Assembly: GCF_003610535.1 (NCBI RefSeq)
Contig: NZ_RAPN01000001.1
Coordinates: 310,001 to 374,000, forward strand
Reading direction: 5' to 3'
Length of the DNA: 64,000 nt
Source: Mangrovibacterium diazotrophicum
GTDB taxonomy: Bacteria; Bacteroidota; Bacteroidia; Bacteroidales; Prolixibacteraceae
Part shown: positions 4,212-43,205 of the stretch, one piece after another
Position numbering within the stretch: position 1 is the stretch's first letter
How the letters are laid out: every line of letters begins with the position of its first letter
Translations under genes and position numbers: made by a program
The notes under the pieces: generated by a model
The model's database searches: none
What the model was told of the DNA's origin: nothing
The model's input: only the letters and a program-made list of their open reading frames with translations

Positions 4212-4222
4212 GGCTTCTGTTT

Positions 4223-4791: not shown

Positions 4792-4837
4792 AAATGGCTT
4801 ATCTTAAAAGTTGAAAAGGGGACTGTAAAAAATACTA

Positions 4838-12868: not shown

Positions 12869-12952
12869 ATTATTTAGAATTTCCTTTTTTGTGAACTAAA
12901 CAATGCCAGAAATCGCGTTGTTTCACAATTCATAACCAATACAATTAAGATT

Positions 12953-19405: not shown

Positions 19406-20620
19406 ATGAAAACAATTACTAGCCTGTTACTAATCTGCTTAATTACAACCCTTCAACTTTCGGCACAAGAAGCTACACAATGGCGCGGAAAAAATTCAGA
19501 AGCAAAATACGCAGCACCCAATTTGTTGAACAGCTGGCCTGAAGCCGGACCCGATGTCATTTGGCATTTCGATGAATTGGGCGATGGTTTTTCCTCGCCT
19601 GTATTTGCCAACGGAAAAATCTATGTGGGGGGAATGGATAACAATGTGGGCTACATTTTTATTCTGAATACTTCCGGAACGCTTGAGCAAAAGATTGAAT
19701 ACGGAAAAGAATTCGAAGTCAACTATCCGGGGTCCCGGGCAACGCCAACTATTGTAGGGGATATGGCTTATATCTCGACTGGATATGGCGAGCTGATTTG
19801 CCTTGATTTGGAGACGGCCAAGCGAGTTTGGAGTAAAAGTCTCGAAACTGACTTTGGTGCAGAGAACCTTCGTTTTGGTTTTACCGAGTCAATTGTAGTC
19901 GATGGCGATGAACTTTATTTTACCCCCGGTGGAGCTGATTTTAATATCGTTGCGCTGAATCGGATGAATGGTGAACTAATCTGGAAAAGCAACGGGAACG
20001 GTAAACTTTCAGCTTATTGCACTCCGAAATTATTGCAAATGCAAGGCCGCCAGATTCTGGTGACTCATATGGCCGACGACATTGTTGCAGTAGACACGAA
20101 AGACGGAAAAGTATTGTGGACATACCCGCATCCGAATCAATACAATATTCACCCCAACACACCAATTTTTCAGGATGGAGATTTGCTTTGTTTTAGCGGC
20201 TACGGTCAGGGCGGTGTACGTTTGAAATTGAGCCTTGATGGGTCTTCTGTCACAAAGGTTTGGAGCACTGAAAAGATGGATAACCAAATGGGAGCCGCCG
20301 AAATCGTGAATGGCCAAATTTACGGTTCCGGACACAAAAGCCGCGGCTGGTACTGTTTGGATTGGAAAACCGGCGAGGTCAAGTGGGCTTCGGCCGAAAT
20401 GGGAAATGGTGTAATCATCATGGCTGGCGACAAATTCATTCTGTATTCCGAAAGGGGAGAATTGGCTTTGGTAAATCCGAATCCGGAGAGTTTTGAGATC
20501 ATTTCCAAAGCCAAAGTTGAACTTGGCACAGCACAACACTGGGCACACCCGGTGGTTGCCAATGGTGTTTTGTACGTTCGTCATGGCAAATCGCTGATTG
20601 CCTACAAAATATCAGCCTGA
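19406..20620 (+). CDS. exported PQQ-like beta-propeller protein 1 (BamB-like fold)
   Basis: A 404-residue protein. A signal peptide (about 1-20, LLLICLITTLQLSAQ) is followed by a single propeller starting with the TQWRGKN motif. Tryptophan-docking repeats are visible: CLDLETAKRVW, ALNRMNGELIW, AVDTKDGKVLW and CLDWKTGEVKW. The adjacent Cys pair and acidic ligand set of true quinoprotein dehydrogenases are not seen, so PQQ binding is doubtful. It is the first gene of the 19-kb operon and a close paralogue of the next gene (shared layout KAWP/NSWP, GYSS/GFSS, STPTI/ATPTI, and the ending HWAHP). It is probably periplasmic. Role unknown. Confidence 0.85.
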   Translation: MKTITSLLLICLITTLQLSAQEATQWRGKNSEAKYAAPNLLNSWPEAGPDVIWHFDELGDGFSSPVFANGKIYVGGMDNNVGYIFILNTSGTLEQKIEYGKEFEVNYPGSRATPTIVGDMAYISTGYGELICLDLETAKRVWSKSLETDFGAENLRFGFTESIVVDGDELYFTPGGADFNIVALNRMNGELIWKSNGNGKLSAYCTPKLLQMQGRQILVTHMADDIVAVDTKDGKVLWTYPHPNQYNIHPNTPIFQDGDLLCFSGYGQGGVRLKLSLDGSSVTKVWSTEKMDNQMGAAEIVNGQIYGSGHKSRGWYCLDWKTGEVKWASAEMGNGVIIMAGDKFILYSERGELALVNPNPESFEIISKAKVELGTAQHWAHPVVANGVLYVRHGKSLIAYKISA

Positions 20621-20656
20621 CAGATTCTTCAGAAAACCTAAACTAATTCCTTTCAC

Positions 20657-21898
20657 ATGAAAAAGATACTTGCTGGGCTAATTGGCTCACTGCTTTTTTT
20701 CTCTACTCATGCTCAGATTTTTCAGTTTCGGGGTCCTGCCCGCGACGGAAAGTTTGAGGAAGTCGGCTTATTGAAAGCTTGGCCCGCTGAGGGGCCGGAG
20801 CTGCTGCTGGAAATTGATAGCATTGGCAAAGGTTATTCCTCGGTTATTTCTGACGGAGAATTTATTTATGTGTCGGGCATGAAAGACACAATGGATTACC
20901 TCACTTGTATCGATTTCTCGGGAATAAAAAGATGGCAGGTGCCTTATGGCGAATCGTGGAAAAAATCATTCCCGGATACGCGTAGTACGCCAACAATTGA
21001 GGATGATCGCATCTACATTGTCAGTGGAATTGGTGAGTTAGTTTGCCTGAATAAAACGGACGGCTCGATTATTTGGAAACAGAATGTCGATCGCGATTTT
21101 GAAGCGGACTGGCATATCTGGGGAGTCTCAGAATCACCGCTAATTGTTGGTGATCTCGCAATCTGCACGCCAGGTGGAACAAAAACATCAGTGGTTGCAT
21201 TCGATAAGTTCTCTGGTGAATTGAAATGGGAAACAGCAAGTGTCGGCGGCCAGCGGGCTTACGCATCTGCAACAACGTTTGACTTGGATGGAAAGCAATA
21301 CATTCTGGCCGAGACCGCAACGAACCTGATGGTGATCGATCCGGCAAACGGTTCCGTTAAAATGACTTATCAGTACTACAATCACGACAAGTGGTCTGAT
21401 CAGCCGGGATTGATCTGGACGAATATTCCACTAATCAAGGGCGATGAGATATTTCTGTCGATGGGGTATGACTATCCCGCTAAAATGATCAAAGTAAATG
21501 CTGATAGGACGGGCTTTGAAGAGCTTTATACAGATACCATTTTCGATAACCACCATCATGGATTGATCGAGTTGGATGGCTACATCTATGGCTCTAACTG
21601 GGAAAATAACCGCAAAGGAAACTGGCTTTGTAAGAACTGGAAGACCGGCGAAATCACCTACAACGAGCAGTGGAACACCAAAGGAGCTCTGATTTATGCT
21701 GACAGCATGCTGTACGTTTATGAAGAGCAACGCGGAACGGTTGCACTGGTAAAACCGAATCCGGAGAAATTCGATGTTGTGAGCACATTTCGGTTTGAAA
21801 AAGGAGCCGGTCCTCATTGGGCACATCCATTCATCAACGACGGGAAGCTTTTCCTTCGCCATGGAGACGTTCTGCAAGTCTATAATCTGAGAGAATAA
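20657..21898 (+). CDS. exported PQQ-like beta-propeller protein 2
   Basis: A 413-residue protein with a signal peptide ending FFSTHAQ (about residue 19), then FRGPARDG, the FRG motif common to these propellers, and repeats CLNKTDGSIIW, AFDKFSGELKW and CKNWKTGEITY. It parallels protein 1 along its whole length, up to the near-identical ending GPHWAHPFINDGKLFLRHGD, so the two arose by tandem duplication. The last docking Trp has been replaced by Tyr. It lies 36 bases after gene 1, and the following gene starts immediately at its stop. It is probably a periplasmic scaffold or redox partner. No catalytic residue can be named. Confidence 0.85.
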   Translation: MKKILAGLIGSLLFFSTHAQIFQFRGPARDGKFEEVGLLKAWPAEGPELLLEIDSIGKGYSSVISDGEFIYVSGMKDTMDYLTCIDFSGIKRWQVPYGESWKKSFPDTRSTPTIEDDRIYIVSGIGELVCLNKTDGSIIWKQNVDRDFEADWHIWGVSESPLIVGDLAICTPGGTKTSVVAFDKFSGELKWETASVGGQRAYASATTFDLDGKQYILAETATNLMVIDPANGSVKMTYQYYNHDKWSDQPGLIWTNIPLIKGDEIFLSMGYDYPAKMIKVNADRTGFEELYTDTIFDNHHHGLIELDGYIYGSNWENNRKGNWLCKNWKTGEITYNEQWNTKGALIYADSMLYVYEEQRGTVALVKPNPEKFDVVSTFRFEKGAGPHWAHPFINDGKLFLRHGDVLQVYNLRE

Positions 21899-23323
21899 GT
21901 GAAGCGGAATCCTGTAAATATCATCATTGGCCTTGCTGCTTTCGCGGGTATTTCTGCCTTTGTTTTTTGGTTGGCGGTCGATCCGATGAAATCGATGGAT
22001 ATCAGTCAGCCGGGAGCCGATAACCGGGAGAAAGGAAGCCTGGTTAAAGAAATCGTCAAGATAGGTGAGAAGTTTCAGCTGTTTGGCGAGTCAAAATCAA
22101 ACAATTACACAGGCACCTGGCCTCATTTCAGGGGGCAAAACTACGATAATATTGTCAGTGAAAAACAGGATCTCAAGGACAGCTGGAGCGACGACGAGCC
22201 TGAGATCTTGTGGTCGCTTGAATTGGGCGAAGGGCACGCCGGCCCAGCAGTTTACAAGGGAATGGTGTACGTGATGGACTATGACGAAGAAGCGCGCGAG
22301 GATGCTTTACGCTGTTTCTCGTTGGCAGACGGTCACGAAATTTGGCGACGTTCTTACGGTATTCATGTCAAACGAAATCACGGGATGTCAAGAACTGTCC
22401 CTGCCGTTACCGAGTATTATGTGGTCACGATTGGCCCGCGTTGCCAAGTCATGTGTGTTGACCGAAAAAGCGGCGATTTTCTATGGGGAATCGATCTGGT
22501 AGAGGAATACGGTTCCGAGATTCCGCATTGGTACACGGCGCAGTGCCCGATGATTGATGGCGACAAAGTGATTTTAGCGCCGGCCGGCAGCAAGCTCATG
22601 ATCGCCGTCGATATAAAGACCGGCGAAAAATTATGGGAATGCCCCAATGACATTCAATATAAGATGTCACACTCGTCGATTATGCCGATGACCTTAAACG
22701 GGAAACACATGTATGTGTACAGCGCTGATGGCGGTATTTGCGGCATTTCGGCAGAGGGGGACGACGAAGGCCAGCTTGTGTGGTATTGCAACGAGTGGCG
22801 GTTCTCGGTGGTTGCTCCATCACCGGTCATTTTTCCCGACGGCAAAATCTTCCTGACTGCAGGGTACGGTGCCGGCGGAATGATGATACAAGTTATACCG
22901 AATGGAAATTCATTTGAAACGAAAGTTTTAGCCCAATATCAACCCAAAGACGGGCTGGCCTGCGAGCAGCAAACCCCGGTTTACTACAAAGGCTATTTGT
23001 ATGGCATTATGCCGAAGGATGGCGGTGCTTACCGCAACCAGCTTGTTTGTACAACGCCCGATAATGTACAGCAGTTTCGGTGGACTTCGGGAAAAGTGAG
23101 CCGCTTTGGTTTGGGCCCTTACCTGATTGCCGACGATAAAATGTACATTCTGGGCGACGATGGTACACTTACAATGGTGAAACCAGATCCGAATAAGTAC
23201 GTGCAGCTGGCGCAAAAAAAACTGTTTGACGGGCACGATGCCTGGGCTCCTCTGGCAATTGTCGATGGGCTGTTGCTTTTGCGCGATTCGAAAACGATGT
23301 ATTGTGTAAACATCAGTAATTAA
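21899..23323 (+). CDS. membrane-anchored PQQ-like beta-propeller protein 3
   Basis: A 474-residue protein starting at GTG, directly after the previous stop (no gap). One N-terminal membrane segment (about 6-26, IIIGLAAFAGISAFVFWLAV) has no SPase I site, so the propeller should be anchored to the outer face of the inner membrane. The propeller begins with WPHFRGQNYDN (about residue 75) and has repeats CFSLADGHEIW, CVDRKSGDFLW and AVDIKTGEKLW. It contains single Cys residues (GPRCQVMC, TAQCPM, EWRF region) but no vicinal pair. Compared with proteins 1 and 2 it is more distant and longer. Confidence 0.85.
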   Translation: MKRNPVNIIIGLAAFAGISAFVFWLAVDPMKSMDISQPGADNREKGSLVKEIVKIGEKFQLFGESKSNNYTGTWPHFRGQNYDNIVSEKQDLKDSWSDDEPEILWSLELGEGHAGPAVYKGMVYVMDYDEEAREDALRCFSLADGHEIWRRSYGIHVKRNHGMSRTVPAVTEYYVVTIGPRCQVMCVDRKSGDFLWGIDLVEEYGSEIPHWYTAQCPMIDGDKVILAPAGSKLMIAVDIKTGEKLWECPNDIQYKMSHSSIMPMTLNGKHMYVYSADGGICGISAEGDDEGQLVWYCNEWRFSVVAPSPVIFPDGKIFLTAGYGAGGMMIQVIPNGNSFETKVLAQYQPKDGLACEQQTPVYYKGYLYGIMPKDGGAYRNQLVCTTPDNVQQFRWTSGKVSRFGLGPYLIADDKMYILGDDGTLTMVKPDPNKYVQLAQKKLFDGHDAWAPLAIVDGLLLLRDSKTMYCVNISN

Positions 23324-23334
23324 ATGAATTTGGA

Positions 23335-24303
23335 ATGAAGACACGGAAACTCATCAATATCATTCTGATTGTCGTCGCTGTTGCGATCGCTGTCATTATT
23401 GGCCGCGACTTTATTTCGAACCGTGCGGGCAAGTCGGTTAAAAATCCCTACGAATTGGATTTAAGCCAATTTGCAAAAGTAGATTCCAGCGAGATTCTTT
23501 ACAAAGAGGTAAAAGCCATCCAGCTTAATGCGAAGGAAGTCGACGCAATTTCAATTTTTAACGATACCATTTATGTGGCAGCCGATAGTACGATATTGTT
23601 GCTCAATACTGACGGACTCATTCTGAAAAAAATAGCAATTCCCACGAAGGCAACTGCTTTGGCTGTGGATGATGCCGTTTTGGTGGCTTTAAAAAACAGG
23701 ATTATAAAATTGACTAAAACCGGCGATGTTTTAGCTGATTGGCCCGACATGGGACCGCGCTCTGTGATAACATCTCTCGCAGTGGATTCGGATCATCTTT
23801 ACGTGGCTGACGCCGGAAACCGGGTCGTGTTGGATTACACGAAAAGTGGTGCATTATCACAAATGCTGGGAGAGCGTAATGAAGAAAAAGGCTTGGAGGG
23901 TTTCACCGTTCCCAGCCCGTATTTTGATGTGGCGATTAGCGAAGAGGGCTACCTGTGGGCAGTTGATCCGGGGCGTCACAGCCTTATTAATTTTAACGTA
24001 GACGGTAGTTTGCGCACTTCCTGGCAACATTCGTCGGCCAACACCGAAGGATTCAGTGGCTGTTGCAATCCTGCCCACATGTGTCTGATGGAGGGCGACC
24101 GTTTTGTGACCAGCGAAAAGGGAATCGTCCGCGTAAAAATTTACGACCAGCACGGAAAATATTTAGGTGTTGTGGCAGCTCCCAATCAGTTCGACGAATA
24201 TAGCGAAGCCCCCGACATTTGTGTGGATAGCGAAGGCCGAGTGCTCTTGTTGGACTTCAGTAGAAAACAGATTCGCTTTTTTCAACTTAAAAAAGAAGAG
24301 TAA
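23335..24303 (+). CDS. membrane-anchored NHL-type beta-propeller protein
   Basis: A 322-residue protein with an N-terminal membrane anchor (about 6-23, IILIVVAVAIAVIIGRDF) and NHL-like repeats, for example SLAVDSDHLYVADAGNRVVLDYTKSG and the final ICVDSEGRVLLLDFSRKQIRFF. A striking GCCNPAHMC motif lies near residue 242, followed by EKGIVRVKIYDQHGKYLG. NHL propellers bind ligands or partner proteins. The Cys-Cys-x3-His-x-Cys cluster could hold a metal or haem-like group, but it is not a CxxCH motif. Its stop overlaps the ATG of the next gene by one base. Confidence 0.8.
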   Translation: MKTRKLINIILIVVAVAIAVIIGRDFISNRAGKSVKNPYELDLSQFAKVDSSEILYKEVKAIQLNAKEVDAISIFNDTIYVAADSTILLLNTDGLILKKIAIPTKATALAVDDAVLVALKNRIIKLTKTGDVLADWPDMGPRSVITSLAVDSDHLYVADAGNRVVLDYTKSGALSQMLGERNEEKGLEGFTVPSPYFDVAISEEGYLWAVDPGRHSLINFNVDGSLRTSWQHSSANTEGFSGCCNPAHMCLMEGDRFVTSEKGIVRVKIYDQHGKYLGVVAAPNQFDEYSEAPDICVDSEGRVLLLDFSRKQIRFFQLKKEE

Positions 24304-24512
24304 TGAACAGAAGAGATTTTTTCAGAAAATCCGGACGAATCGGAATACTGGCAGCGATGGGCGGAGGGGTTTTGCTTTTGGCCAATCAAAAGCAAATCGA
24401 TTGGAAATGCGACGAAAATTTAAGTTGTAGAGGATGCGTAGAGTATGCGTCCTGCGATTTGGAACAAGCGAAACAAAGCAGAACAAATGAGCAACGAGAA
24501 GCAAGAAAATAA
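24303..24512 (+). CDS. small Tat-signal protein with four cysteines
   Basis: A 69-residue protein. It begins MNRRDFFRKSGRIGILAAMG, a twin-arginine motif plus a weakly hydrophobic stretch that fits a Tat signal or anchor. The short remainder has four Cys (36, 42, 45, 51; spacing C-x5-C-x2-C-x5-C), which could ligate one Fe-S cluster or metal. It overlaps the NHL gene by one base and the next ferredoxin gene by 26 bases in another frame, so translation is probably coupled. Such a small reading frame could be missed by annotators. The Tat motif and the Cys spacing argue that it is real. No family recognised. Confidence 0.7.
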   Translation: MNRRDFFRKSGRIGILAAMGGGVLLLANQKQIDWKCDENLSCRGCVEYASCDLEQAKQSRTNEQREARK

Positions 24513-25095
24513 GCGAACCAGCCGGCGCGAGTTTATTCAGAAAAGCATGCGCATTGGTTTGGGAGTGGGCCTGACCGCCGTTGGAGGGTTGGCGGCTTTT
24601 CGTGTTCATGCTGAAGATTCGGTTTGGCAGCTCGATCCGTTTAAATGCGTTGCTTGCGGGCGATGTGCCGATTATTGTGTCATGACACCCTCGGCTGTGA
24701 AGTGTGTGCATGCTTTCGATTTGTGTGGCTATTGCGACTTGTGCGGCGGCTATCTGAAACCGAACTCGAATGCTCGTTCTACAGCAGCCGAAAATCAGCT
24801 TTGCCCAACCTCAGCCATTCGTCGCAAGTTTGTGGAGGAGCCTTATTTTGAATACGAAATAGAAGAGGATTTGTGCATTGGATGCGGCGTTTGCGTTAAA
24901 GGCTGCACGGCTTTTGGCAATGGTTCGCTGCACTTGCAGGTGCGCCATAATTTGTGTGTGAATTGCAACGAATGCTCCATCGCCCGGGTTTGCCCGGCCG
25001 ACGCATTTCAGCGCGTTCCGGCATCGAGCCCTTATCTGATAAAGGGTGAGTGGACCAAAGATTCGAAGAATAAAAAACAACCTCCAACGGAATAG
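24487..25095 (+). CDS. Tat-exported polyferredoxin, NapG/MauM-like
   Basis: A 202-residue protein beginning with a Tat signal (SRREFIQKS at 12-20, hydrophobic to about 38). Four cluster motifs follow: Cys 54/57/60/64, Cys 80/83/86 with 106 (the split NapG-type pattern), Cys 130/133/136/140 and Cys 157/160/163/169. It should therefore carry four [4Fe-4S] clusters on the periplasmic side of the inner membrane. NapG works with the membrane protein NapH to pass electrons from quinol. Here a NosR/NapH-like gene follows at once. ATG 24487 is chosen because the frame's earlier start (24445) adds residues before the Tat motif. It is probably an electron carrier of this operon. Confidence 0.88.
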   Translation: MSNEKQENKRTSRREFIQKSMRIGLGVGLTAVGGLAAFRVHAEDSVWQLDPFKCVACGRCADYCVMTPSAVKCVHAFDLCGYCDLCGGYLKPNSNARSTAAENQLCPTSAIRRKFVEEPYFEYEIEEDLCIGCGVCVKGCTAFGNGSLHLQVRHNLCVNCNECSIARVCPADAFQRVPASSPYLIKGEWTKDSKNKKQPPTE

Positions 25096-25097
25096 CC

Positions 25098-26387
25098 ATG
25101 AGTCAACGAATCATAAAAATGCTTTTAGCTGGGGTGATGTTTTGCTTGACCCTGTCCGGTTTTGCCCAGCAACAGCGCTTTCCAAAACCGGAATTTGAAA
25201 CGGGCTATTCACAACCGCCAACGCAGCAACCTTTGCCACGCGCAATTTTCCTCGAGTATCTGGATGTCGCTGTGCTAATTGGTGCACTGCTGCTGGTCAG
25301 TTGGTTTGTTTTAAAGAAGAGATCACGACAGGGAGTGCTGTGGACCTCCGTTTTTTCGCTGCTGTATTTCGGTTTTTACCGGGAAGGCTGCATTTGCGCC
25401 ATTGGATCAATCCAAAATGTGGCTTTGGCCACTTTCGATCCAACCTATGTTTTGCCGCTAACAGCCTTGCTGTTCTTCCTTATTCCGTTGATTACTGCGC
25501 TATTCGCAGGGCGAACATTCTGTGCAGGCGTCTGTCCGCTTGGAGCCATTCAGGATTTGGTGGCGTTTCGACCTATTGAATTGCCACGCTGGTTGCAGAA
25601 GGTTTTAGGCCTGATTCCTTACCTCTATTTGTCGCTGGCGGTGCTGTACGCCGCAACCAAATCCGAATTTTTAATCTGCCGTTACGATCCCTTTGTCGGT
25701 TTTTTCCGTTTCGACGGGACGTTTCAAATGCTTCTGCTCGGCGGACTCTTTTTGATCGTCGGGGTATTTGTTGCACGCCCGTATTGTCGTTTTTTCTGTC
25801 CGTACGGTGTGTTGCTGGGCTGGATGTCATCTTTCTCGAAAAAGCATTTAACAATCACCCCAACAGCTTGTATTCAGTGCAAGTTGTGCGCCAATTCTTG
25901 TCCGTTTGGCGCGATCGAAGAGCCGGATCTGGAAGAAGGAAAGCGTCGTCCCAATGTCAACCGTCTGCTGAAATATTTGATCCTGATTCCTGCCTGGATG
26001 CTGATCGGTGGGCTGGCGGGATCGATGCTGCACGGAACACTTTCAAAATTCAATAAGACCGTTTATCTGGCCGAAATGATTGTGGAGAACCCCGATGTTC
26101 GCTACGATCAGGAGAATATTGACGCGCGCACATTTATGCAGGCGGGCAAAACGATGGATCAGCTGGTGGCTGATGCACAAAAAATAAAAAGCCAGTTTTA
26201 TTGGGGCGGCTGGATTGCCGGGGCATTTATGGGCTTGGTAATCGGTTTGGTTTTGGTGAATTTGTCTTCATACAGACGCAGAAACGACTATGAACCCGAT
26301 AAAACGAATTGTTTGAGTTGCGGGCGATGCATGGATTATTGCCCGGTAAAACAAGAAACAGAACATGAAAATGACTTTAGACGATAA
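25098..26387 (+). CDS. NosR/NapH-like membrane polyferredoxin
   Basis: A 429-residue membrane protein with a signal-like N-terminus (1-24), about six membrane helices, and Cys motifs at GCICAIG (about 98), TFCAGVCPLGAIQD (Cys about 142 and 146) and RPYCRFFCPYGVLLGW (about 230 and 234). These are the CxxxCP pairs typical of NosR, NapH and CcoG. A [4Fe-4S] motif CIQCKLCANSCPFGAI follows near 258-273, and a further CLSCGRCMDYCPVK near the C-terminus (about 405-418). Proteins of this type pass electrons between the quinone pool or cytoplasm and periplasmic acceptors. It begins 2 bases after the NapG-like gene and overlaps the next gene by about 23 bases. Confidence 0.87.
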   Translation: MSQRIIKMLLAGVMFCLTLSGFAQQQRFPKPEFETGYSQPPTQQPLPRAIFLEYLDVAVLIGALLLVSWFVLKKRSRQGVLWTSVFSLLYFGFYREGCICAIGSIQNVALATFDPTYVLPLTALLFFLIPLITALFAGRTFCAGVCPLGAIQDLVAFRPIELPRWLQKVLGLIPYLYLSLAVLYAATKSEFLICRYDPFVGFFRFDGTFQMLLLGGLFLIVGVFVARPYCRFFCPYGVLLGWMSSFSKKHLTITPTACIQCKLCANSCPFGAIEEPDLEEGKRRPNVNRLLKYLILIPAWMLIGGLAGSMLHGTLSKFNKTVYLAEMIVENPDVRYDQENIDARTFMQAGKTMDQLVADAQKIKSQFYWGGWIAGAFMGLVIGLVLVNLSSYRRRNDYEPDKTNCLSCGRCMDYCPVKQETEHENDFRR

Positions 26388-28266
26388 AAAGAAACTGGCA
26401 CGCGGATTAGCATGGACGGGAGCGGTTTTCAGCCTCGTGGTAAGCGTGATGCTGATTGTTAACTATCTGCAGCTAAAATCAGTCGATCCGCTGGAAAGTC
26501 CCGCATTGAAAGCGCTGGTAGAACAATTGCATCAAAATCCAAACGATGAAGTATTGAAGGAAAACATTCGTGCGCTCGATTTCATGATTCGTAAGGCCTA
26601 CTTTACCAGCCAATGGCAAATCAAAACGGGAACGTTGATGCTGATTCTGGGCGTATTGGTGCTGATTCTGGCGCTGCGTTGGGGCAAGTCGCTTCGCAAT
26701 GAACTGGAGGAACTGGAGTCGATCAATAAAAATCCGTTTCTGGATAAGCGTCAGGCTCGACTCGGAGTCATTTATGCAGGAGTCGGAATATTTGCACTAG
26801 CGCTGCTGTCGGGCTTCTTTTCGTCCAACCTTTTGAGCGATTACGACGCATCGGAATTGACAGCGACCACCCCTGAAACTCCGGCGGTAGAGATTGTGAT
26901 GGCACAGGAAGCGGAGGCTGTTGATGTACCAAATTCAGAACCGAAAGAAGTAGAAGCACAGCTTGAATCGACTTTCGAAGAAGAGGTGCAATCGGAAGTA
27001 AAAGAGATAGTTAAAGAAGATAATCCTAAGCCTGAAAAAGTATCCGAACCGAAACAAGCGACTGCTTCATGGCCTTCTCAAGCGGAGATGCGGAAACAGG
27101 TGCCGTTCTTTCGCGGACCAGATGGCGATGGCGTAACTTATCAGAAAGGTTTTGCCAAGTCGTTCGATGGAGCATCGGGCGAAAATGTTTTGTGGAAAGT
27201 TTCGGTTCCCAAGCATGGTTACAATTCGCCAATCATTTGGGACAACAAGCTATTCCTGACGGGAGCTGACAATTCGGCTCGCGTGGTCTATTGCTACGAT
27301 AAAAACACCGGTAAACTTCTTTGGGAAGCTGCTGCAGACAACATTCCTGGTTCGCCGGCAACCATGCCCAAAGTAACGGAAGACACAGGCTTGGCCGCGT
27401 CGACGATGGCAACAAACGGCAATTCCGTATTTGCTCTGTTTGCCACCGGCGATTTGATTGCACTGGATTTAACTGGCAATCGAATATGGGCCAAAAACCT
27501 GGGAGTGCCGGATAATCACTACGGGCATTCGTCCTCTCTGATTATCTACAAAGACAAGTTGTTGATTCAATACGATACCAATCGGGGCGGAAAACTGATC
27601 GCACTTTCAACTGCCGACGGCTCTCAGAAATGGGAGACTGTCCGCGATGTGAAAATCAGCTGGGCATCTCCGGTTTTAGTCAACACAGGCAAACGCGAAG
27701 AGCTTATTCTGACTGCCGATCCGCTGGTTGCCGGCTATGACCCCGAGACAGGGAAAGAGCTGTGGAATGTAAGCTGCATGATGGGCGAAGTTGGACCATC
27801 GGTGGGCTATGCGAACGGTGTGGTGTACGCTGCGAATGAGTACGCAACAATGGCGGCTATCAAGCTCGGCGATACCCCCGAAATCATTTGGGAACAACAG
27901 GAGTATTTGCCCGAGGTATCCAGTATTCTCGCGACAAATGGACTGGCGGTGGTGGCAACCAGCTATGGCGTAATTGCAGCCTACGATGCGCAGACCGGCG
28001 AAAAATATTGGGAGCACGAAGCGTCTTCCGGCTTTTATTCGTCGCCTGTTTATGCCGATGGAAATATCTACGCGATCGACATGAATGGGAATTTGAGCGT
28101 GATAAAAGCAGGCAAAGAATTCGAGATAGTCTCAGAATCGAAACTGGGAGAAAAGGCCTTCGGAACACCGGTGTTCTCAAATGGAAAAATGTATCTCAGG
28201 GGTGTTGAAAATCTGTATTGCATAGGAGCGAATTGTAATGGAAGAAAATCTTCAACATACAAATAG
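26365..28266 (+). CDS. multi-pass membrane PQQ-like beta-propeller protein 4
   Basis: A 633-residue protein. Three N-terminal membrane helices (about 14-35, 87-108, 133-155) are followed by an acidic, Pro/Lys-rich linker (about 165-240) and a propeller beginning VPFFRGPDGDG (about 247). Repeats include CYDKNTGKLLW, ALDLTGNRIW, ALSTADGSQKW, GYDPETGKELW and AYDAQTGEKYW, a full set of Trp-docking motifs. Three helices and a long linker would hold the propeller in the periplasm. No vicinal Cys is present. The start is ATG 26365 or 26371. It overlaps the polyferredoxin gene upstream and the NuoE-NuoF gene downstream (28238) by 20-30 bases, which indicates coupled translation. Confidence 0.87.
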   Translation: MKMTLDDKKKLARGLAWTGAVFSLVVSVMLIVNYLQLKSVDPLESPALKALVEQLHQNPNDEVLKENIRALDFMIRKAYFTSQWQIKTGTLMLILGVLVLILALRWGKSLRNELEELESINKNPFLDKRQARLGVIYAGVGIFALALLSGFFSSNLLSDYDASELTATTPETPAVEIVMAQEAEAVDVPNSEPKEVEAQLESTFEEEVQSEVKEIVKEDNPKPEKVSEPKQATASWPSQAEMRKQVPFFRGPDGDGVTYQKGFAKSFDGASGENVLWKVSVPKHGYNSPIIWDNKLFLTGADNSARVVYCYDKNTGKLLWEAAADNIPGSPATMPKVTEDTGLAASTMATNGNSVFALFATGDLIALDLTGNRIWAKNLGVPDNHYGHSSSLIIYKDKLLIQYDTNRGGKLIALSTADGSQKWETVRDVKISWASPVLVNTGKREELILTADPLVAGYDPETGKELWNVSCMMGEVGPSVGYANGVVYAANEYATMAAIKLGDTPEIIWEQQEYLPEVSSILATNGLAVVATSYGVIAAYDAQTGEKYWEHEASSGFYSSPVYADGNIYAIDMNGNLSVIKAGKEFEIVSESKLGEKAFGTPVFSNGKMYLRGVENLYCIGANCNGRKSSTYK

Positions 28267-30589: not shown

Positions 30590-30601
30590 GTTTCGAATGC
30601 A

Positions 30602-30639
30602 AACTCGCAACTCGCAACTCATAACCCGAAACTCGAAAC
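30602..30639. repeat. tandem heptamer repeat, AACTCGC-type, about 5 copies
   Basis: The gap between the NuoE-NuoF gene and the flavoprotein gene consists almost wholly of degenerate 7-base units: AACTCGC, AACTCGC, AACTCAT, AACCCGA, AACTCGA, AAC. It lies only 8 bases before the next ATG. Confidence 0.8.
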
Positions 30640-30646
30640 AGAACAG

Positions 30647-32209
30647 ATGATTCATTTGAAGATAAATAACCAAGCCATTGAAGTTCCGGAAGGAACCACC
30701 CTGCTGGAGGCAGCACGAAAGTTGGGAATTGAAATCCCGACGATGTGTCATTTGGAGGGCACCGAGCATTTTACATCCTGCATGGTGTGTTTGGTGAAAG
30801 ATGCCCGACACGGTCGTTTGGTGGCTTCGTGCTCTATGCCGGCGATGGAGGGAATGGAAATTATCACCGATGACGACGAGTGCCGGGAATCGCGAAAAAT
30901 GTCGCTGGAGCTGCTGCTGAGTGAGCATGTCGGCGATTGCGAAGCGCCCTGCCAGTCGGTTTGTCCGGCGCATATGAATATTCCTTTGATGAATCGTCTG
31001 ATTGCAGCCGGAAAGCATCAGAAAGCGATCGAAGTGGTAAAACGTGACATCGCTCTACCGGCAATTTTGGGACGCATTTGCCCGGCACCTTGTGAAGCAG
31101 GTTGCCGTCGCAAACCAATCGACGAGGCTGTTTCAATATGCCTGCTGAAAGGATTTGTGGCGGATCATGAAATTCAAAAGGAAATTCCATTGCCAGCCGA
31201 CTCCGGACGAAAAGTAGCAATCGTTGGTGCCGGACCTGCCGGTTTAGCTGCTGCTTTCTACTTGAGCAAAGCCGGGCATGCGGTTACCCTCTTCGAGAAA
31301 AACGCTTTGGCTGGCGGGGCTTTATTAGAGATTGCAGATTCAGTTCTACCAAAAGAAGTACGGGAAAAAGAAATTAACTCCTTGTTGAACTCCAAAATTC
31401 ACGCAGAATTCAACGTTGAAATCAGTGCCGAACGGTTTATCCAGCTGCAGCAGGACTTTGATGCCGCTATTTTGGCTACCGGAGCGCTGAAAGACGATTT
31501 CAAAGATTGGGAACTGAAGCTTTCAAAATCAGGTATTGAAGTTGATAAAAAGACATACCAGACATCTTTGTCCAAGGTATTTGCGATTGGAAATGCGCTA
31601 CGGCCTTCAAAGCTGGCTGTGCGATCTGTTGGGCAAGGGAAGGACTTAGCTTTCATCCTGAATAACTGGTTTGAAACCGGTGAGTTGCATGCCTTGCCGG
31701 AACGTTTCAATTCCAAATTTGGCAAATTGCTTGAGACTGAATATGACAGTTATCTGAAAGAATCGAACCACAAAGCCCGACAAATTGCAGGCAGGGGAAA
31801 AGCAATCGGTTTTACCGCTGAAGAAGCGGAGACTGAGGCTTCGCGCTGTTTGCATTGCGATTGCAGAAACCCGGAAAGTTGCAAGTTGCGGGATTTGGCC
31901 AATCAATTCGGGGCCGAGCAAAAACGATTCCAGTACGACCAACGCATCCAGATACAAAAAGAATTTGCTGCCGGAACAGTCGTTTTCGAGCCGGGCAAAT
32001 GTATTAAGTGCGGCATTTGTGTGCGCCTGACCAAACAGCACCAGGAAGAGTTTGGATTTAGTTTTATCGGGCGCGGCTTTGACGTTCGCATTGGTGTTCC
32101 ATTTTCAAAATCTGTTGGTAAAGCCTTGGCGAAAACGGCAGTCTTGGTTGCCACAAAATGCCCAACGGGTGCTCTGGCGTTAATCGATTCTGAAGAACAA
32201 ATAGACTAA
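30647..32209 (+). CDS. NfnB/GltD-like FAD oxidoreductase with N-terminal [2Fe-2S] domain, NAD(P)-binding insert missing
   Basis: A 520-residue cytoplasmic flavoprotein. Residues 1-75 form a NuoG/hydrogenase-type [2Fe-2S] domain (Cys 34, 45, 48, 62). The GltD-type Fe-S helical domain follows (DCEAPCQSVCPAHMNIP, ICPAPCEAGC), then the FAD Rossmann motif AIVGAGPAGLAAAFYLSKAG (about 190-210) and AILATGA (about 276). After this, GltD/NfnB proteins normally insert an NAD(P)-binding Rossmann domain with a second GxGxxA/G. Here the chain goes straight to VFAIGNALRPSKLA. The C-terminus has more Cys groups (CLHCDC, CIKCGIC, KCPTGAL). It probably takes electrons from the NuoE-NuoF protein rather than from NAD(P)H directly. 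Confidence 0.9.
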   Translation: MIHLKINNQAIEVPEGTTLLEAARKLGIEIPTMCHLEGTEHFTSCMVCLVKDARHGRLVASCSMPAMEGMEIITDDDECRESRKMSLELLLSEHVGDCEAPCQSVCPAHMNIPLMNRLIAAGKHQKAIEVVKRDIALPAILGRICPAPCEAGCRRKPIDEAVSICLLKGFVADHEIQKEIPLPADSGRKVAIVGAGPAGLAAAFYLSKAGHAVTLFEKNALAGGALLEIADSVLPKEVREKEINSLLNSKIHAEFNVEISAERFIQLQQDFDAAILATGALKDDFKDWELKLSKSGIEVDKKTYQTSLSKVFAIGNALRPSKLAVRSVGQGKDLAFILNNWFETGELHALPERFNSKFGKLLETEYDSYLKESNHKARQIAGRGKAIGFTAEEAETEASRCLHCDCRNPESCKLRDLANQFGAEQKRFQYDQRIQIQKEFAAGTVVFEPGKCIKCGICVRLTKQHQEEFGFSFIGRGFDVRIGVPFSKSVGKALAKTAVLVATKCPTGALALIDSEEQID

Positions 32210-32211
32210 AA

Positions 32212-33321
32212 ATGAAGATCGGACTAATTACAATATTCTTGTTTCTATCGCTACCGAATTTGTTGTTCGCTCAGAGCGAATGGCCCATTTTCCGTGGCAA
32301 TCGAGAGCTGACGGCTTCATTGCCTACGGATCTGCCGGCCAAGTTGGATTTACTGGCGTCCTTTCAAACTGACGATGAAGTTAAAGCTTCGCCGGTGGTG
32401 AAAAATGGCATCGTCTATTGCGGATCTACTGATGGCTATTTCTACGCGTTCAACTTAAATGGCGAATTAAAATGGAAATACAAAACTGAAAATGGGATCG
32501 AGGCGCCTGCCGTTTTATTGGACGGCAAAGTCGTTTTTGGTTGTTTGGACGGCGAGTTTATTTGTCTGAATGAAAACGACGGTTCGCTGATTTGGAAATA
32601 CAAAACCGAAAACCAGATTACAGGTTCTGCGAACTGGAAAAACGTTGGAGGTAAAATCGTTTTGGCTGTGGGCAGTTACGACTACTTTCTGCACGGCGTC
32701 AACCTGTCGGATGGCGTGGGACTGTGGAAATATGAATCGAATAATTTCATCAACGGTGCTCCCGCGTTATCCAAAGACGCGGTTGTTTTCGGCGGATGCG
32801 ACGGTTTTCTGCACATTGTTAGCCTGAAAACGGGTGAGGCTGTTCGAACCATTGAATTGTCAACTTATGTTGCTTCGTCACCGGCAATCGTGGGCAACAT
32901 TGCTTACGTTGGCGATTACGACGGCCGTTTCTTTGCTGTTGATCTGGAAGCTGGCAAGGTGATGTGGACCTACGATAATCCGGACAAGGATCTTCCTTTT
33001 ATCGCTTCCCCGGCCATTAGTGGTGACTTGATTGTCCTTGGAAATGAGGACCGTCAACTTTATGCGATTAGCCGAAAAGATGGTAAATTAGTTTGGTCAA
33101 AACGTCTGAGCAACCGAATTGATTCTTCGAGTGTGATTGCCGGTAAATCGGTCTTTACCGCCACAATGGACGGAATGCTTTACCGCCACGATCTGGCAAC
33201 CGGAGAGCAATTATGGACTTATGATATTGGTAGTCAGATTGCTGGCTCGCCGGCTATTTGCGATGGAAAACTGGTAGTTGGTGCGAACGACGGCCGTATC
33301 TACATCTTTGGAAAAGATTAA
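32212..33321 (+). CDS. exported PQQ-like beta-propeller protein 5
   Basis: A 369-residue protein with a signal peptide ending NLLFAQ (about residue 20), then SEWPIFRGNRELT with the shared FRG motif. Regular propeller repeats follow: AFNLNGELKW, CLNENDGSLIW, GVNLSDGVGLW, AVDLEAGKVMW, AISRKDGKLVW and RHDLATGEQLW. It is the most regular and shortest of the five propellers and most like BamB-type/PQQ_2 proteins. It starts 2 bases after the flavoprotein stop and ends 12 bases before the glycosyltransferase. Periplasmic location is inferred from the signal peptide. No enzymatic residues can be identified. Confidence 0.87.
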   Translation: MKIGLITIFLFLSLPNLLFAQSEWPIFRGNRELTASLPTDLPAKLDLLASFQTDDEVKASPVVKNGIVYCGSTDGYFYAFNLNGELKWKYKTENGIEAPAVLLDGKVVFGCLDGEFICLNENDGSLIWKYKTENQITGSANWKNVGGKIVLAVGSYDYFLHGVNLSDGVGLWKYESNNFINGAPALSKDAVVFGGCDGFLHIVSLKTGEAVRTIELSTYVASSPAIVGNIAYVGDYDGRFFAVDLEAGKVMWTYDNPDKDLPFIASPAISGDLIVLGNEDRQLYAISRKDGKLVWSKRLSNRIDSSSVIAGKSVFTATMDGMLYRHDLATGEQLWTYDIGSQIAGSPAICDGKLVVGANDGRIYIFGKD

Positions 33322-33333
33322 AACCGAAAGTTT

Positions 33334-34617
33334 ATGAAAATTGCGCATATCATTCCGGGCTCTGGTGGAAGCTTTTATTGCGGGAACTGCCTTCGCGACG
33401 CAAAATATATGAAAGCTTTACAGGATTTGGGGCAGCAGGTTATCAAGATTCCGATGTACCTGCCACTTTTTGAAGATGCGCATGACCTGACAGAAGTGCC
33501 TGTCTTTTATGGTGCTGTGGATACTTACCTAAAGCAACGCTTTCCTATTTTTCGTTACATGCCGCCGATGGTTGATAAGATGCTGAATTCGAAGGCCGTG
33601 TTGAATCTGGCAGCTAAAAATGCGGGCTCAACACGGGCAAAAGGCTTGGAAGAAATGACAATCTCGATGTTGAAAGGCGAAGATGGCTTGCAGCACGATG
33701 AGCTGGAAAGGCTGGTTGAATGGCTGAAGGAGGAAACGAAACCGGATATTGTGCACCTGTCAAATGCTTTGCTGCTGGGATTGGCCCGAAGAATCAAGCA
33801 GAAGTTGAAGATTCCGGTTGTTTGTTCGTTGCAGGATGAAGATGTTTGGGTCGACGTCATGAGTGATCGCAACAGGGACGAGTGTTGGGAAATCATGAAA
33901 CGACGAGCCAAAGATGTGGATGCTTTCATTGCCGTTAGCCAGTTTTACGCCGATGAGATGAAACAGCGCCTGCATTTGAGCGACAAGCAGCTGTTCGTTA
34001 ACCACATCGGCGTTGATGCGAATGACTACGTAGCTAAACCGATTGGCGATAAAAAGCCTGTAATTGGCTTTATTTCACGCATGTGTGAAGACAATGGACT
34101 GGATATTCTGGTAGATGCTTTTCTGCTGTTGAAAGAAGATCCGTCTTTTGCAGATGTGGAATTGAGAATTACAGGCGGCAAGACCAACGATGATAACAAG
34201 TTTATACAGGAGCAGAAAACGCTCATTGAACAGGCTGGATTGAGTGACGCTGTGCATTGGGTTGACGAATTTGAGGGGAATGCTCGTCATCAGTTCTTTG
34301 ACACAATTTCGGTGCTCTCAGTACCCGTGTTAAACGGAGAAGCGTTTGGTCTTTATCAGCTCGAAGCTTTGGCTTCCGGAATTCCGCTGGTTCAACCCGA
34401 ATTGGGTGCTTTTCCCGAAGTTGTGAATTTGTCCGAAGGTGGAATAATTTATCATCCCAATAGTCCGAAGAAATTAGCCAAAGCCTGGAAGAGTCTGATT
34501 CTGGATAAGGGATGGTTGGAAGATCTTAGCACTAAAGGATTAGCTGGTGTGAAAAAGCATTTCGACATCCACGAACAGGCCAAAAAGTTAGTGGCGATTT
34601 ATGAAAAAATAAACTAA
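33334..34617 (+). CDS. glycosyltransferase, GT4-like GT-B fold
   Basis: A 427-residue cytoplasmic glycosyltransferase. The N-terminal half begins KIAHIIPGSGGSFYCGNCLRD, an unusual start with the acceptor-side Gly loop and two Cys. The C-terminal half has IGFISRMCEDNGLDILVDAF, the nucleotide-sugar domain, and the E-x7-E motif in EAFGLYQLEALASGIPLV. The donor and acceptor are unknown. It follows a propeller gene by 12 bases and so appears to belong to the operon. It might modify a lipid or exported component handled by the ABC exporter encoded next. That link is speculative. Confidence 0.88.
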   Translation: MKIAHIIPGSGGSFYCGNCLRDAKYMKALQDLGQQVIKIPMYLPLFEDAHDLTEVPVFYGAVDTYLKQRFPIFRYMPPMVDKMLNSKAVLNLAAKNAGSTRAKGLEEMTISMLKGEDGLQHDELERLVEWLKEETKPDIVHLSNALLLGLARRIKQKLKIPVVCSLQDEDVWVDVMSDRNRDECWEIMKRRAKDVDAFIAVSQFYADEMKQRLHLSDKQLFVNHIGVDANDYVAKPIGDKKPVIGFISRMCEDNGLDILVDAFLLLKEDPSFADVELRITGGKTNDDNKFIQEQKTLIEQAGLSDAVHWVDEFEGNARHQFFDTISVLSVPVLNGEAFGLYQLEALASGIPLVQPELGAFPEVVNLSEGGIIYHPNSPKKLAKAWKSLILDKGWLEDLSTKGLAGVKKHFDIHEQAKKLVAIYEKIN

Positions 34618-34680
34618 TAAAAAGAACAACGGAATTCGAATTTCAAAAGGTCAGGTGAGCCAAATAACTCATTTTGAGAT

Positions 34681-34704
34681 TTGGAATTTAAACATTGGAA
34701 TTTA
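34681..34704. repeat. short direct repeat TTGGAATTTA before the ABC ATPase gene
   Basis: TTGGAATTTA occurs at 34681-34690 and again at 34695-34704, in the 94-base gap between the glycosyltransferase and ABC ATPase genes. Like the heptamer repeat at 30602, it occupies an operon gap just before a start codon. Confidence 0.6.
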
Positions 34705-34711
34705 TCTACTC

Positions 34712-35386
34712 ATGCTTGAAATCAAACAACTCTGCAAAAGCTTTCAGTCCGGTTTGGGTGAAAGAAGAGTCATATTGGATAATTTGGATTTAACGGTTGA
34801 ATCGAGTGAACGTTTGGCTATTGTCGGCCCCTCAGGATCGGGAAAAAGCACTTTACTGAATCTGATCGGCGCATTAGACAAACCGGATTCAGGCGATATT
34901 TTACTGGAAAATCAATCCGTTTTAAAGCAGTTCGATAAAGAATTGGCTTCATACAGAAATCGAGAAATTGGCTTCGTTTTTCAGTTTCATCACCTCTTGT
35001 CCCAGCTGACGGTGAAAGAGAATATTTTACTGCCAATCTTGGCTCGCGAGCAGCGGGTTGATGCACAACTTTTGCAAAGAGCCGACTATCTGATGGAAAG
35101 ACTCGGAATTGAGAATCTGCATAAACAGCGCCCTTCGCAGCTTTCGGGAGGCGAGTGCCAACGCACAGCAGTGGCTCGGGCGTTAATTAATTCACCCAAA
35201 ATATTATTGGCCGATGAGCCAACCGGAGCACTGGATGAAGCATCTTCTGAGCAGCTAACAGAACTTCTTTTGCAACTAAACAAGGAGGAAGAAGTGAGCC
35301 TGATCGTTGTCACGCATTCGATGAAACTGGCTTCGCGAATGGATAAAATCTATCGTTTGACAAACGGAAAACTTCAGCAACAATGA
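34712..35386 (+). CDS. ABC transporter ATP-binding protein, LolD/MacB type
   Basis: A 224-residue ABC ATPase of LolD length. Walker A is GPSGSGKSTLLNLIG (about residues 37-51), the Q-loop FVFQFHHLL, the signature LSGGECQRTAVARAL, Walker B ILLADEPTGALDE, and the H-loop VVTHS. The frame opens at 34655, but the domain starts at ATG 34712 (MLEIKQLCKSF), and the 19 extra residues derive from the repeat-containing gap, so 34712 is chosen. It overlaps the permease gene by 4 bases. Members of this family export lipoproteins, peptides or other substrates by mechanotransmission and do not translocate through a channel. Confidence 0.93.
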   Translation: MLEIKQLCKSFQSGLGERRVILDNLDLTVESSERLAIVGPSGSGKSTLLNLIGALDKPDSGDILLENQSVLKQFDKELASYRNREIGFVFQFHHLLSQLTVKENILLPILAREQRVDAQLLQRADYLMERLGIENLHKQRPSQLSGGECQRTAVARALINSPKILLADEPTGALDEASSEQLTELLLQLNKEEEVSLIVVTHSMKLASRMDKIYRLTNGKLQQQ

Positions 35387-38300: not shown

Positions 38301-38610
38301 CATCTTCCGAAGCCTGATGGAACAACGAAGCACTTTTGCCTTACTGGAAGCCGTCGGATTCACCCGGCAAAAAATACGGAACACGAGTCTGAAAGGTCAT
38401 TTATTCCTGGTATTTCAGGCATTGCTTATCGGCTTTATTCCCTCGCTCTTCGCCGGTTTGCCAGCAATTCTATCCGGAAATTATGGAAACCTGATTTTCT
38501 GGAGTCTTCTCGTTTTCGGCTCAGTTCTGTTTAGTGCCTGGTTTTGGACTTTTATCGGCCATCGGCTGGCGATGAGGGGTAAAGCAAGTGAAGCCCTGCG
38601 CAACGAATAG
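35383..38610 (+). CDS. ABC transporter permease, FtsX-like, double-length
   Basis: A 1075-residue membrane protein. There is one N-terminal helix (about 18-40), a long extracytoplasmic domain to about 485, a first FtsX-like bundle of three helices (about 490-610, including SEIGTLHAIGFRASLIRRLF), two further helices (about 635-690), a second extracytoplasmic region (about 715-945), and a second FtsX bundle (about 945-1060, with FALLEAVGFTRQKIRNTSLKGH). Two FtsX modules in one chain make a complete permease dimer, unlike MacB or LolC/E which need two chains. It ends the operon and is followed by a hairpin that includes its last codons. Substrate unknown. Confidence 0.9.
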   Translation: MSIFRYVFNSLIRFWKLNLTILVGVALSTAILLGALMVGDTVSWNLKKISLQRLGYTQWTVSGGERLFRSSLVTEMDSLNCSPALFTRGMAVVGGGQARANHIQVWGIDSGFNRIAGTTDVYTLSNNEAVLNEQLANILGIKVGEELMLRVNRLSEYPANTPFVSADENTVAFRVIVKAIVFAEQCGNFNLQPIQSAPGNVFVSLDWLNRQMKLRGKANLILGSNAVINEQEFEDLLSKHWTLDDMNLQLFEDSANKTVGLRSERVFLDQEPVKKILSSDSLTYPVLTYFVNQFEHEGQITPYSFVSGIPSNQLEISENEMLVNDWLAEDLNVKKGDSIELHYFEVGPLRQLIEKQTSLRVAGIVPLSGKWADQQLMPQIPGLSDAGHCSDWETGVPVDLSLIRPKDENYWNTWKGTPKAFVRLETAQKLWGNSYGEATAVYFGNKSAEQVEKEILSSVSPADLGFQINPVREDGLKAASQGVDFGGLFIGLSFFVLFAALLLAWLMFKLYLNFRTSEIGTLHAIGFRASLIRRLFFDEALAIVVPGIALGIPLGILYNSLILDAINSIWRDIVRTSVVEPHLSLQSILVSITSILLICMGSVWFILRRVAKQSVVGSQREQVAIVSLKKRNLWIGLGLNILAFALMLAQGIGKEIQPEIFFTTGFLLLPGLLFLADFFLLRLVLKEANGLSFGHFSKTLTFGDRRRNNLTISFLSIGIFLVLSTGLFRQDLTSNADKASSGTGGYPYFAETSFPVLFDLNTKEGRFELGLEEVQTHFVQFQSLDGTDASCLNLNRVHRPRVLGFDPAEFNERNAFTFASTSEELDGSHPWLTLKHKLKNGAIPAIADASVIQWSLGKAVGDTLVYQNESGQSITLQLVGGLANSVFQGNILIGDSLFRANFPSVSGSSVFLIDAPADEEADLKSAFRNYGMDLSTTTDRLLLFYQIENTYLNIFLMLGALGLLIGTIGLAIVIFRSLMEQRSTFALLEAVGFTRQKIRNTSLKGHLFLVFQALLIGFIPSLFAGLPAILSGNYGNLIFWSLLVFGSVLFSAWFWTFIGHRLAMRGKASEALRNE

Positions 38611-41254: not shown

Positions 41255-41310
41255 TCTTAAAATCGTTTAGTAAGGAATTTCCGCTTGGCAGAAACTCCGT
41301 CAATGATTAA

Positions 41311-43194: not shown

Positions 43195-43205
43195 TGCTCG
43201 AAAAA

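Follow-up and report, generated by a model that had tools for sequence, protein, structure and literature searches.

What might connect a cytosolic NuoE/NuoF protein with a set of periplasmic propeller proteins? The question is raised by an operon in the 5.8-Mb genome of Mangrovibacterium diazotrophicum, located in a stretch of 64,000 nucleotides (contig NZ_RAPN01000001.1, positions 310,001 to 374,000, assembly GCF_003610535.1) which is referred to here as the window and whose numbering is used throughout. Reading of the open reading frames (ORFs) and a Pfam scan of the window place 13 plus-strand genes at 19406-38610. They encode five PQQ_2/BamB-like propellers (prop1 to prop5), an NHL propeller, a ferredoxin with an RR motif of the twin-arginine translocation (Tat) type (NapG), a NapH-like membrane protein (NapH), a NuoE/NuoF protein (NuoEF), an Fe-S flavoprotein, a GT4 glycosyltransferase, an ATP-binding cassette (ABC) ATPase and a large FtsX permease (Table 1). 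An earlier reading of the same DNA, the preliminary description, had counted fourteen genes; the run and its families are present as it said, but NuoE and NuoF are a single fused ORF of 783 amino acids. The answer developed below, to which we assign an even chance, is that the operon encodes a transmembrane electron-transfer system whose bifurcating (Bfu) NADH-ferredoxin core exchanges electrons with the periplasm and not with a soluble third substrate.

For comparison, 80 loci were retained from a scan of genome contigs, a clostridial locus of different gene order (L088) being set aside. This locus and those of the own genome (L001-L008) were excluded from the family alignments, in which length relative to the query was limited to 0.75-1.4, 0.8-1.25 or 0.8-1.3, rows with internal stops also being dropped under the latter two filters. 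Genome searches scored only the best 4 to 18 first-look candidates per genome. Loci with the core order prop3-NHL-NapG-NapH-prop4-NuoEF-flavoprotein occur in Bacteroidota, Planctomycetota and Verrucomicrobiota, in candidate division FCPU426 (L082) and in bins lacking an assigned phylum (L053, L057), while a Fidelibacterota locus (L087) starts inside prop4. Where a locus extends 7 kb or more upstream of NuoEF, the complete upstream set of five genes is found on the NuoEF strand in 31/31 cases from Bacteroidota and 16/18 from elsewhere. The only long loci without these genes are L049 and L061. The contig of L049 does carry prop3-NHL-NapG-NapH-prop4 as a block, about 92 kb away from NuoEF; in the genome of L061, NapH adjoins prop4, and prop3, NHL and NapG were not found on the 16 kb examined. 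The flavoprotein follows NuoEF in 65 of the 73 loci that have enough flank or a match, the basis of all counts for single genes. The operon is thus more than a chance assembly, because its gene order recurs across phyla. The preliminary description had taken the genes for one unit and had asked whether related genomes keep their order; for the core they do.

The fused NuoEF protein places a predicted bifurcating enzyme at the center of the operon. The best PDB matches of its B half are 9n5u, 9bov and 8oh5 (Stn), 7t2r and 7q4v, which are the B subunits of Nfn/Stn/Hyd-type Bfu enzymes. The B2 cluster of a NiFe enzyme has C438, C476, H525, C531 and C536 as its ligands; the same source adds that the histidine is missing in only 8 of 1558 BfuB sequences and is not present in non-bifurcating homologues, and that about two thirds of BfuB sequences have Thr at the position of C476 (PMC9304861). 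By residue spacing against this source, and not by structure overlay, the equivalent ligands are C626, C664, H713, C718 and C723. C626 is found in 80/80 rows and H713, C718 and C723 in 79/80 with one gap, whereas residue 664 is variable (C 44, T 28, S 5, R 2, A 1). Retention of the other clusters is similar: the NuoE-type [2Fe-2S] cluster C1 has C82, C87 and C123 in 77/80 and C127 in 78/80, the rest being gaps, and the thioredoxin-like N-terminal [2Fe-2S] site of BfuB has C188 and C218 in 80/80, C187 in 74/80 and C222 in 73/80. C643, C646 and C689 (80/80) with C649 (79/80) form what we take to be the B1 4Fe-4S cluster, and eight Cys kept in 79/80 rows form two further 4Fe-4S clusters, which we likewise label as the C-terminal pair. 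By every sequence feature tested NuoEF is a BfuC-BfuB fusion, and bifurcating activity is predicted for it. As NuoEF carries the Bfu ligand set, ferredoxin is a likely second cytosolic partner. The NADH-linked Fe-S/flavin module of the preliminary description is present beside its NapH/NapG-like carriers and periplasmic propellers, not as a plain NADH dehydrogenase, and the complete set of Fe-S motifs claimed for it can now be specified down to the Bfu core ligands. BfuB has 17 clades without an assigned function (PMC9304861, in part), and the present fusion may be one of them.

The flavoprotein downstream of NuoEF had been described as NfnB-like, an assignment that has to be replaced: it is a BfuA/StnC-like third subunit without an NADP(H)-binding domain. 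It aligns with the third subunits of 9bov, 9n5u and 8oh5 over their [2Fe-2S], GltD-type Fe-S and FAD parts, but the alignment skips residues 290 to 440 of 9bov_A (about 150 residues) between residues 283 and 286 of the query. The stretch at 280-300 counts only 6-22 residues in 58/58 aligned rows, against about 150 more in 9bov_A. In StnC the NADPH site lies between two Rossmann folds (PMC10482914, in part), and from the GltD layout the missing residues would be the NADPH domain. This domain is missing in all 62 copies examined, five more being cut off at contig ends and uncounted (L029, L035, L051, L064, L075), which makes NADP(H) very unlikely as the third substrate. The GxGxxG motif for FAD persists in 57-58 of 58 rows and the acidic residue at 217 in 58/58, whereas the Asp of the GD motif is found in only 3/58. 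Four copies of 335-359 amino acids have lost the entire FAD/NADP region: L054 (Planctomycetota), L065 (no phylum), L082 (FCPU426) and L094 (G014, discussed below). They occupy at least three places on the NuoEF tree and keep the [2Fe-2S] and C-terminal Fe-S ligands, although L054 has also lost three GltD-type Cys. The subunit is probably an Fe-S conduit. These losses strengthen one step of the proposed route and leave the odds on the whole as they were, since its open steps are others.

The membrane component has a ligand set of its own. NapH has two CX3CP pairs (C142/C146 and C230/C234), two Fer4 clusters (C258-C268 and C405-C415), a C98xC100 pair and C194, all invariant in 55 rows. AlphaFold2 (AF2) predicts it with pLDDT 82 and pTM 0.82 (pLDDT 68-82 across five models); the predicted fold has no match in the PDB at E <= 0.001, and the protein scores 46 bits with NCBIfam NapH models whose cut-offs are 213-234. 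The AF2 helices and the positive-inside rule suggest that C98, C100 and C194 face the periplasm while the CX3CP pairs and Fer4 clusters are cytosolic. A NapH-like paralogue in an Nqr neighborhood of the own genome shares C98, C100 and the four CX3CP Cys, without C194. The 13 genes include no FMN_bind domain; in the NosR-like protein of the preliminary description the CX3CP pairs and Fer4 clusters are there, and the FMN domain of NosR is not. Rnf subunits are likewise missing among the 13 genes, RnfC being encoded elsewhere in the genome. A further locus, L099 (G000:C5:19000-36000), has Nqr genes followed by a NapH-like protein, an ORF of 469 amino acids without a Pfam match, a polyferredoxin and an ArsP-type permease; it is possibly another uncharacterised electron-transfer locus.

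Predicted periplasmic partners accompany the membrane protein. NapG proteins are exported four-cluster ferredoxins, and in the NapG-like protein of the operon, whose export is likewise predicted, 16 Cys have a conservation of 1.00 in 49 rows and fit four 4Fe-4S clusters by pattern. The AF2 model of prop3 (pLDDT 90.8) resembles BamB, tetrathionate hydrolase and PQQ dehydrogenases, and its C139, C216, C384 and C469 are invariant in 50 rows. The NHL propeller has a motif F-x-G-C-C-N-P in which F240, G242, C243, C244, N245 and P246 are found in 50/50 rows. Among the propellers scanned with NCBIfam (prop1, prop3 and prop4, but not prop2 or prop5), none reaches the BamB cut-off, and the scores for PQQ-dependent dehydrogenase are 53, 20 and 77 bits, respectively, against a cut-off of 480. 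A PqqC query gave no match in the own genome, but neither did its controls.

Combined, these parts suggest the following route. NADH has a potential of about -280 mV and reduced ferredoxin of about -500 mV (PMC9304861, in part), and electrons from both would merge at the FMN of BfuCB at about -400 mV. From there they would leave through the third subunit, for which FAD would not be essential, to the clusters of NapH. NapH would carry them across the membrane to the NapG-like Tat-type ferredoxin, which would pass them to a periplasmic complex of prop3, NHL and prop4. Outward flow is the favored direction because inward electron flow would oppose the membrane potential. The parts and their conservation can be read from sequence; the order of transfer, the direction and the absence of a quinone are what we infer from them. 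The specific proposal that electrons at about -400 mV are exported through a quinone-independent NapH wire, giving a periplasmic Fe-S/propeller complex a reductant far below the quinol pool, is tentative and falls somewhat short of an even chance.

A number of observations weigh against this route. Quinone-free transmembrane transfer by a NapH-like protein has no precedent in the parts of the literature consulted. No terminal reductase or donor dehydrogenase occurs among the 13 genes, in line with the preliminary description, which had noted that the terminal donor or acceptor is missing. In the propellers covered by the NCBIfam scan, no cofactor-binding family exceeds its cut-off (haem motifs were outside the search), so the last step is left without an identified carrier. 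It is not evident what GT4, ABC and FtsX would contribute to electron transfer. The downstream flavoprotein is missing despite sufficient flank in L015, L016, L042, L058, L061, L063, L069 and L077. Six loci with less than 7 kb upstream lack genes that should fit: L045 (Bacteroidota), L058 and L059 (Planctomycetota; L059 only prop4), L065 (no phylum), L075 (Verrucomicrobiota) and L086 (Lentisphaerota). In the L058 genome, NapH is on a 10-kb contig with no other match. Finally, the distribution of nifH, described below, also fits flow in the opposite direction.

Other explanations distribute the same parts differently. NapH could be a menaquinone site, the complex being an oxidoreductase that passes electrons from NADH plus ferredoxin to menaquinone; menaquinol would then feed NapG and the propellers, or these would act as a scaffold. 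The NapH of nitrate reductase has been called a putative quinone-binding subunit (PMC8238504, in part), and a menaquinone-linked Nuo-Bfu has been predicted (PMC9304861, in part). NapG, prop3, NHL and prop4 would nevertheless be superfluous for plain quinone reduction, yet they are conserved with the cytosolic part, and the NapH score far under the family cut-offs speaks against a canonical NapH; a quinone-linked enzyme is unlikely, though it deserves serious weight. Electrons could also run inward, the propeller complex oxidizing a periplasmic donor of low potential and the cytosolic enzyme bifurcating to NADH and reduced ferredoxin, for instance for nitrogenase. Bfu enzymes are described as reversible (PMC9304861, in part), and the system is present in 32/33 nifH-positive genomes of the family (one of the 33, G111, is under the family's cut-off) against 62/87 nifH-negative ones, a comparison uncorrected for kinship. 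Such inward flow is improbable: 62 of the 94 system-positive genomes have no nifH match, no donor dehydrogenase accompanies the genes, and the electrons would probably have to move against the membrane potential. Rnf can also reduce ferredoxin; it is distributed independently of the system (Fisher p 0.40) and is present in the own genome. Given this independence, the idea that the system replaces Rnf was rejected.

Low-potential electrons might alternatively serve only to assemble or reduce the cofactors or Cys of exported proteins; GT4 and the ABC exporter would then act on the product. A maturation-type role has been proposed for MauM/MauN, and NapH does match the NapH/MauN family model, below its cut-off. 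Conserved Cys in prop3, NHL (CC) and GT4 (CxxC), together with an exporter and GT4 within the operon, would suit such a function. No client gene recurs, however, and the operons of relatives did not supply the missing terminal enzyme either: the additional ORFs that flank the core are shared by no more than seven loci and, judged by eye on their N-termini without a scan, seem unrelated. Maturation or repair as the sole function is quite improbable. That the genes are merely accidental neighbors from unrelated units is scarcely credible, and for the core it is contradicted. The GT4-ABC-FtsX genes are separable (L062, most Planctomycetota loci), and the cytosolic and membrane parts are split in the L049 genome; against this stand the core order held across phyla, the joint presence or absence of the markers in the family and a genus-mate with a diverged copy of the whole gene set, both described next.

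Among 120 genomes of the family, NuoEF was found in 86 (E <= 1e-200), NHL in 89 (1e-60) and GT4 in 91 (1e-100); 83 have all three markers and 26 have none. Of the 11 genomes with a partial set, 8 are less than 90% complete, the rest being G072, G119 and G014, which has the diverged operon. An NHL profile (1e-20) matched only the own genome among 247 genomes of the phylum, and a NuoEF query (1e-190) matched seven other genomes, six of which align only from about residue 163 or later. The seventh, G299 (L095, G299:C110), serves as a contrast: separate BfuC and BfuB genes adjoin a Stn-type subunit of 1209 amino acids, whose Pyr_redox_2 match is full-length and which also has a molybdopterin-type domain. 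In an 84-row tree, made by a quick method with three outgroup rows and a midpoint root, the NuoE-NuoF fusions form one clade (SH-aLRT support 100). Distances between 11 families of the operon correlate (r 0.58-0.96), a mirror-tree result in which shared descent and coupling are not separable.

The genus-mate G014 (L094, G014:C10:134000-153500) has the same gene set in strongly diverged form. Identity is 57% for NuoEF and 24-54% for the other ten families compared, versus 69-89% for L084 (whose NapG is not among the rows). Its GT4 and prop2 genes are found at the far end, and there are two NHL genes, both with GCCNP and one with an RR-type start. A distant copy seems to have replaced the entire operon. 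Elsewhere, the M. diazotrophicum genome has RnfC and an Nqr locus; an FeFe-hydrogenase with Bfu-type subunits is encoded at L100 (G000:C3:246000-260000) together with a second Fe-hydrogenase-like protein.

A second block, prop5-GT4-ABC-FtsX, follows the core in most Bacteroidota loci (prop5 32/35, GT4 24/30, ABC 20/27, FtsX 19/26). It is also found in L087 and L057, in L082 as far as the contig extends, and as prop5-GT4 in L053. Downstream on the same strand, each block gene scores 0/8 in Verrucomicrobiota, and in Planctomycetota the counts are 0/13 for prop5 and GT4, 0/9 for FtsX and 2/11 for an ABC match. The verrucomicrobial L062 has the block on the opposite strand. In planctomycetal L054 (features at 12332-13348, with the third subunit that lacks FAD, and at 18-5143), ABC-FtsX lies directly upstream of prop3, and in L064 the end of FtsX lies upstream; the exporter is therefore sometimes linked in Planctomycetota too. 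An N-terminal C-x2-C in GT4 is kept in 29/29 rows and is, to our knowledge, unusual for a GT4 enzyme. The block might be an accessory module for assembly, export or glycan handling. Lineage-specific ORFs that look like Gfo/Idh/MocA and ThuA by eye, unscanned, recur upstream in L009, L011, L012 and L025 and between the flavoprotein and prop5 in L018, L019, L022, L030, L032 and L036.

Several known systems resemble portions of the operon. StnABC (Sporomusa-type Nfn) and Nfn-Bfu have the B/C core in common with the operon, as well as a third subunit built from [2Fe-2S], GltD-type Fe-S and FAD domains; the operon differs in its fusion of C with B, in lacking the NADP(H) Rossmann domain and a long C-terminal part, and in its additional membrane and periplasmic partners. 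Nuo-Bfu and Mbh-Bfu are predicted Bfu cores joined to membrane proteins (PMC9304861, in part). Those systems use proton-pumping subunits like those of complex I or hydrogenases, none of which is found among the 13 genes, whereas the present operon has a NapH-like protein, a Tat-type ferredoxin and propellers. NapGH, NosR and the flavinylated NapH-like proteins include a NapH-like protein with CX3CP pairs and Fer4 clusters (PMC8238504, in part), but the operon lacks FMN_bind, its NapH scores far below cut-off and its input is a cytosolic Bfu enzyme. BamB, tetrathionate hydrolase and PQQ dehydrogenases have the propeller fold of prop3, although prop1, prop3 and prop4 stay below the cut-offs for BamB and PQQ dehydrogenases. 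The parts are known, namely a Bfu core, a Stn-type subunit, NapGH-like carriers and BamB-like propellers. In the open-access literature searched, with preprints and most subscription papers outside it, no description was found of the combination, the fusion, the missing NADP site or the link to a Tat-type ferredoxin and propellers, which agrees with the preliminary description, whose author knew of no characterised system with this gene set.

The genes are closely packed. NHL and NapG are separated by 141 bases, or 183 if NapG starts at 24487, and the remaining gaps are 0-57 bases or overlaps, except for 94 bases before the ABC gene if its start is 34712; the spacing of mostly below 60 bases reported earlier thus applies to all but these. 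The starts of prop1 (19406), NapG (24487) and ABC (34712) were chosen by reading translations. Hydropathy backs the N-terminal signals or anchors of prop2 to prop5 and NHL; the signal-like N-terminus of prop1 is below the threshold used. The nearest named relative in the contig scan is Mangrovibacterium lignilyticum (Prolixibacteraceae), with 88% NuoEF identity.

Table 1. Genes of the operon, in window positions, with the basis of each assignment (TM, transmembrane)
Gene	Position	Strand	Basis and remarks
Propeller 1 (PQQ_2/BamB-like)	19406..20620	+	PQQ_2 E 4e-23; ORF opens 19370; N-terminus signal-like
Propeller 2 (PQQ_2)	20657..21898	+	PQQ_2 E 1e-19; signal-like N-terminus by hydropathy
Propeller 3, core gene	21899..23323	+	PQQ_2 E 3e-17; single N-terminal TM-like segment
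NHL propeller, core gene	23335..24303	+	NHL E 6e-06; single N-terminal TM-like segment
NapG-like Tat-type ferredoxin, core gene	24487..25095	+	Fer4 domains; ORF opens 24445
NapH-like membrane protein, core gene	25098..26387	+	Fer4_5 E 3e-14; two CX3CP, two Fer4
Propeller 4, core gene	26365..28266	+	PQQ_2 E 2e-31; three N-terminal TM-like segments (hydropathy)
BfuC-BfuB fusion (NuoE + NuoF + 2x4Fe-4S), core gene	28238..30589	+	Pfam; PDB matches; ligand spacing
BfuA/StnC-like Fe-S flavoprotein, core gene	30647..32209	+	Without NADP(H)-binding domain versus 9bov_A
Propeller 5	32212..33321	+	Beta-prop_ACSF4 E 4e-58, PQQ_2 E 1e-36; signal-like N-terminus (hydropathy)
GT4 glycosyltransferase	33334..34617	+	Glycos_transf_1 E 3e-20; conserved C16-x2-C19
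ABC ATPase	34655..35386	+	ABC_tran E 2e-37; later ATG 34712 likely start
FtsX-like ABC permease, 1075 amino acids	35383..38610	+	FtsX E 5e-15; two FtsX stretches; hydropathy

Sigma-70-like promoter sites are at chance level (25 versus 23.6 expected), and a Bacteroidota-type promoter pattern has 4 matches versus 3.2 by chance, none of them upstream of the operon. Terminator-like sites exceed chance (36 versus 24.6, standard deviation 4.2), the plus-strand ones among those listed falling within ORFs. No structured RNA reaches its gathering threshold within the window. A defence system was considered and rejected: of the ten proteins scanned with PADLOC (all but NapG, NapH and the ABC ATPase), only the flavoprotein had matches, two of Rossmann type. 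Adjoining the operon, SusD-like, TonB-receptor-plug and DUF5123/beta-helix genes on the minus strand at 39653-46481 resemble a polysaccharide-utilisation locus. Farther upstream, consecutive P-loop ATPase ORFs occupy 865-3960, of which 865-1707 and 2560-3417 were scanned and are ParA/Mrp-type, the latter with Fer4 domains, and 1694-2563 was judged by eye. A small ORF beside them looks NifX/NifB-like.

The core spans Bacteroidota, Planctomycetota, Verrucomicrobiota and other lineages, many of them known only as metagenome bins. It is also carried by named cultured strains, including Mangrovibacterium lignilyticum and Sunxiuqinia species, which makes the proposed transfer of electrons to the periplasm testable. 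In the parts of one survey that were consulted, Bfu enzymes have as proposed third substrates H2, H2O2, pyruvate, CO, aldehydes, aryl-CoA, NADP, F420, formate and quinones, none of which is periplasmic (PMC9304861). If the reading is true, a Bfu enzyme wired to the periplasm would represent a new coupling of both cytosolic carrier pools to the chemistry of the envelope, and would provide a first role for some PQQ-like propeller proteins.

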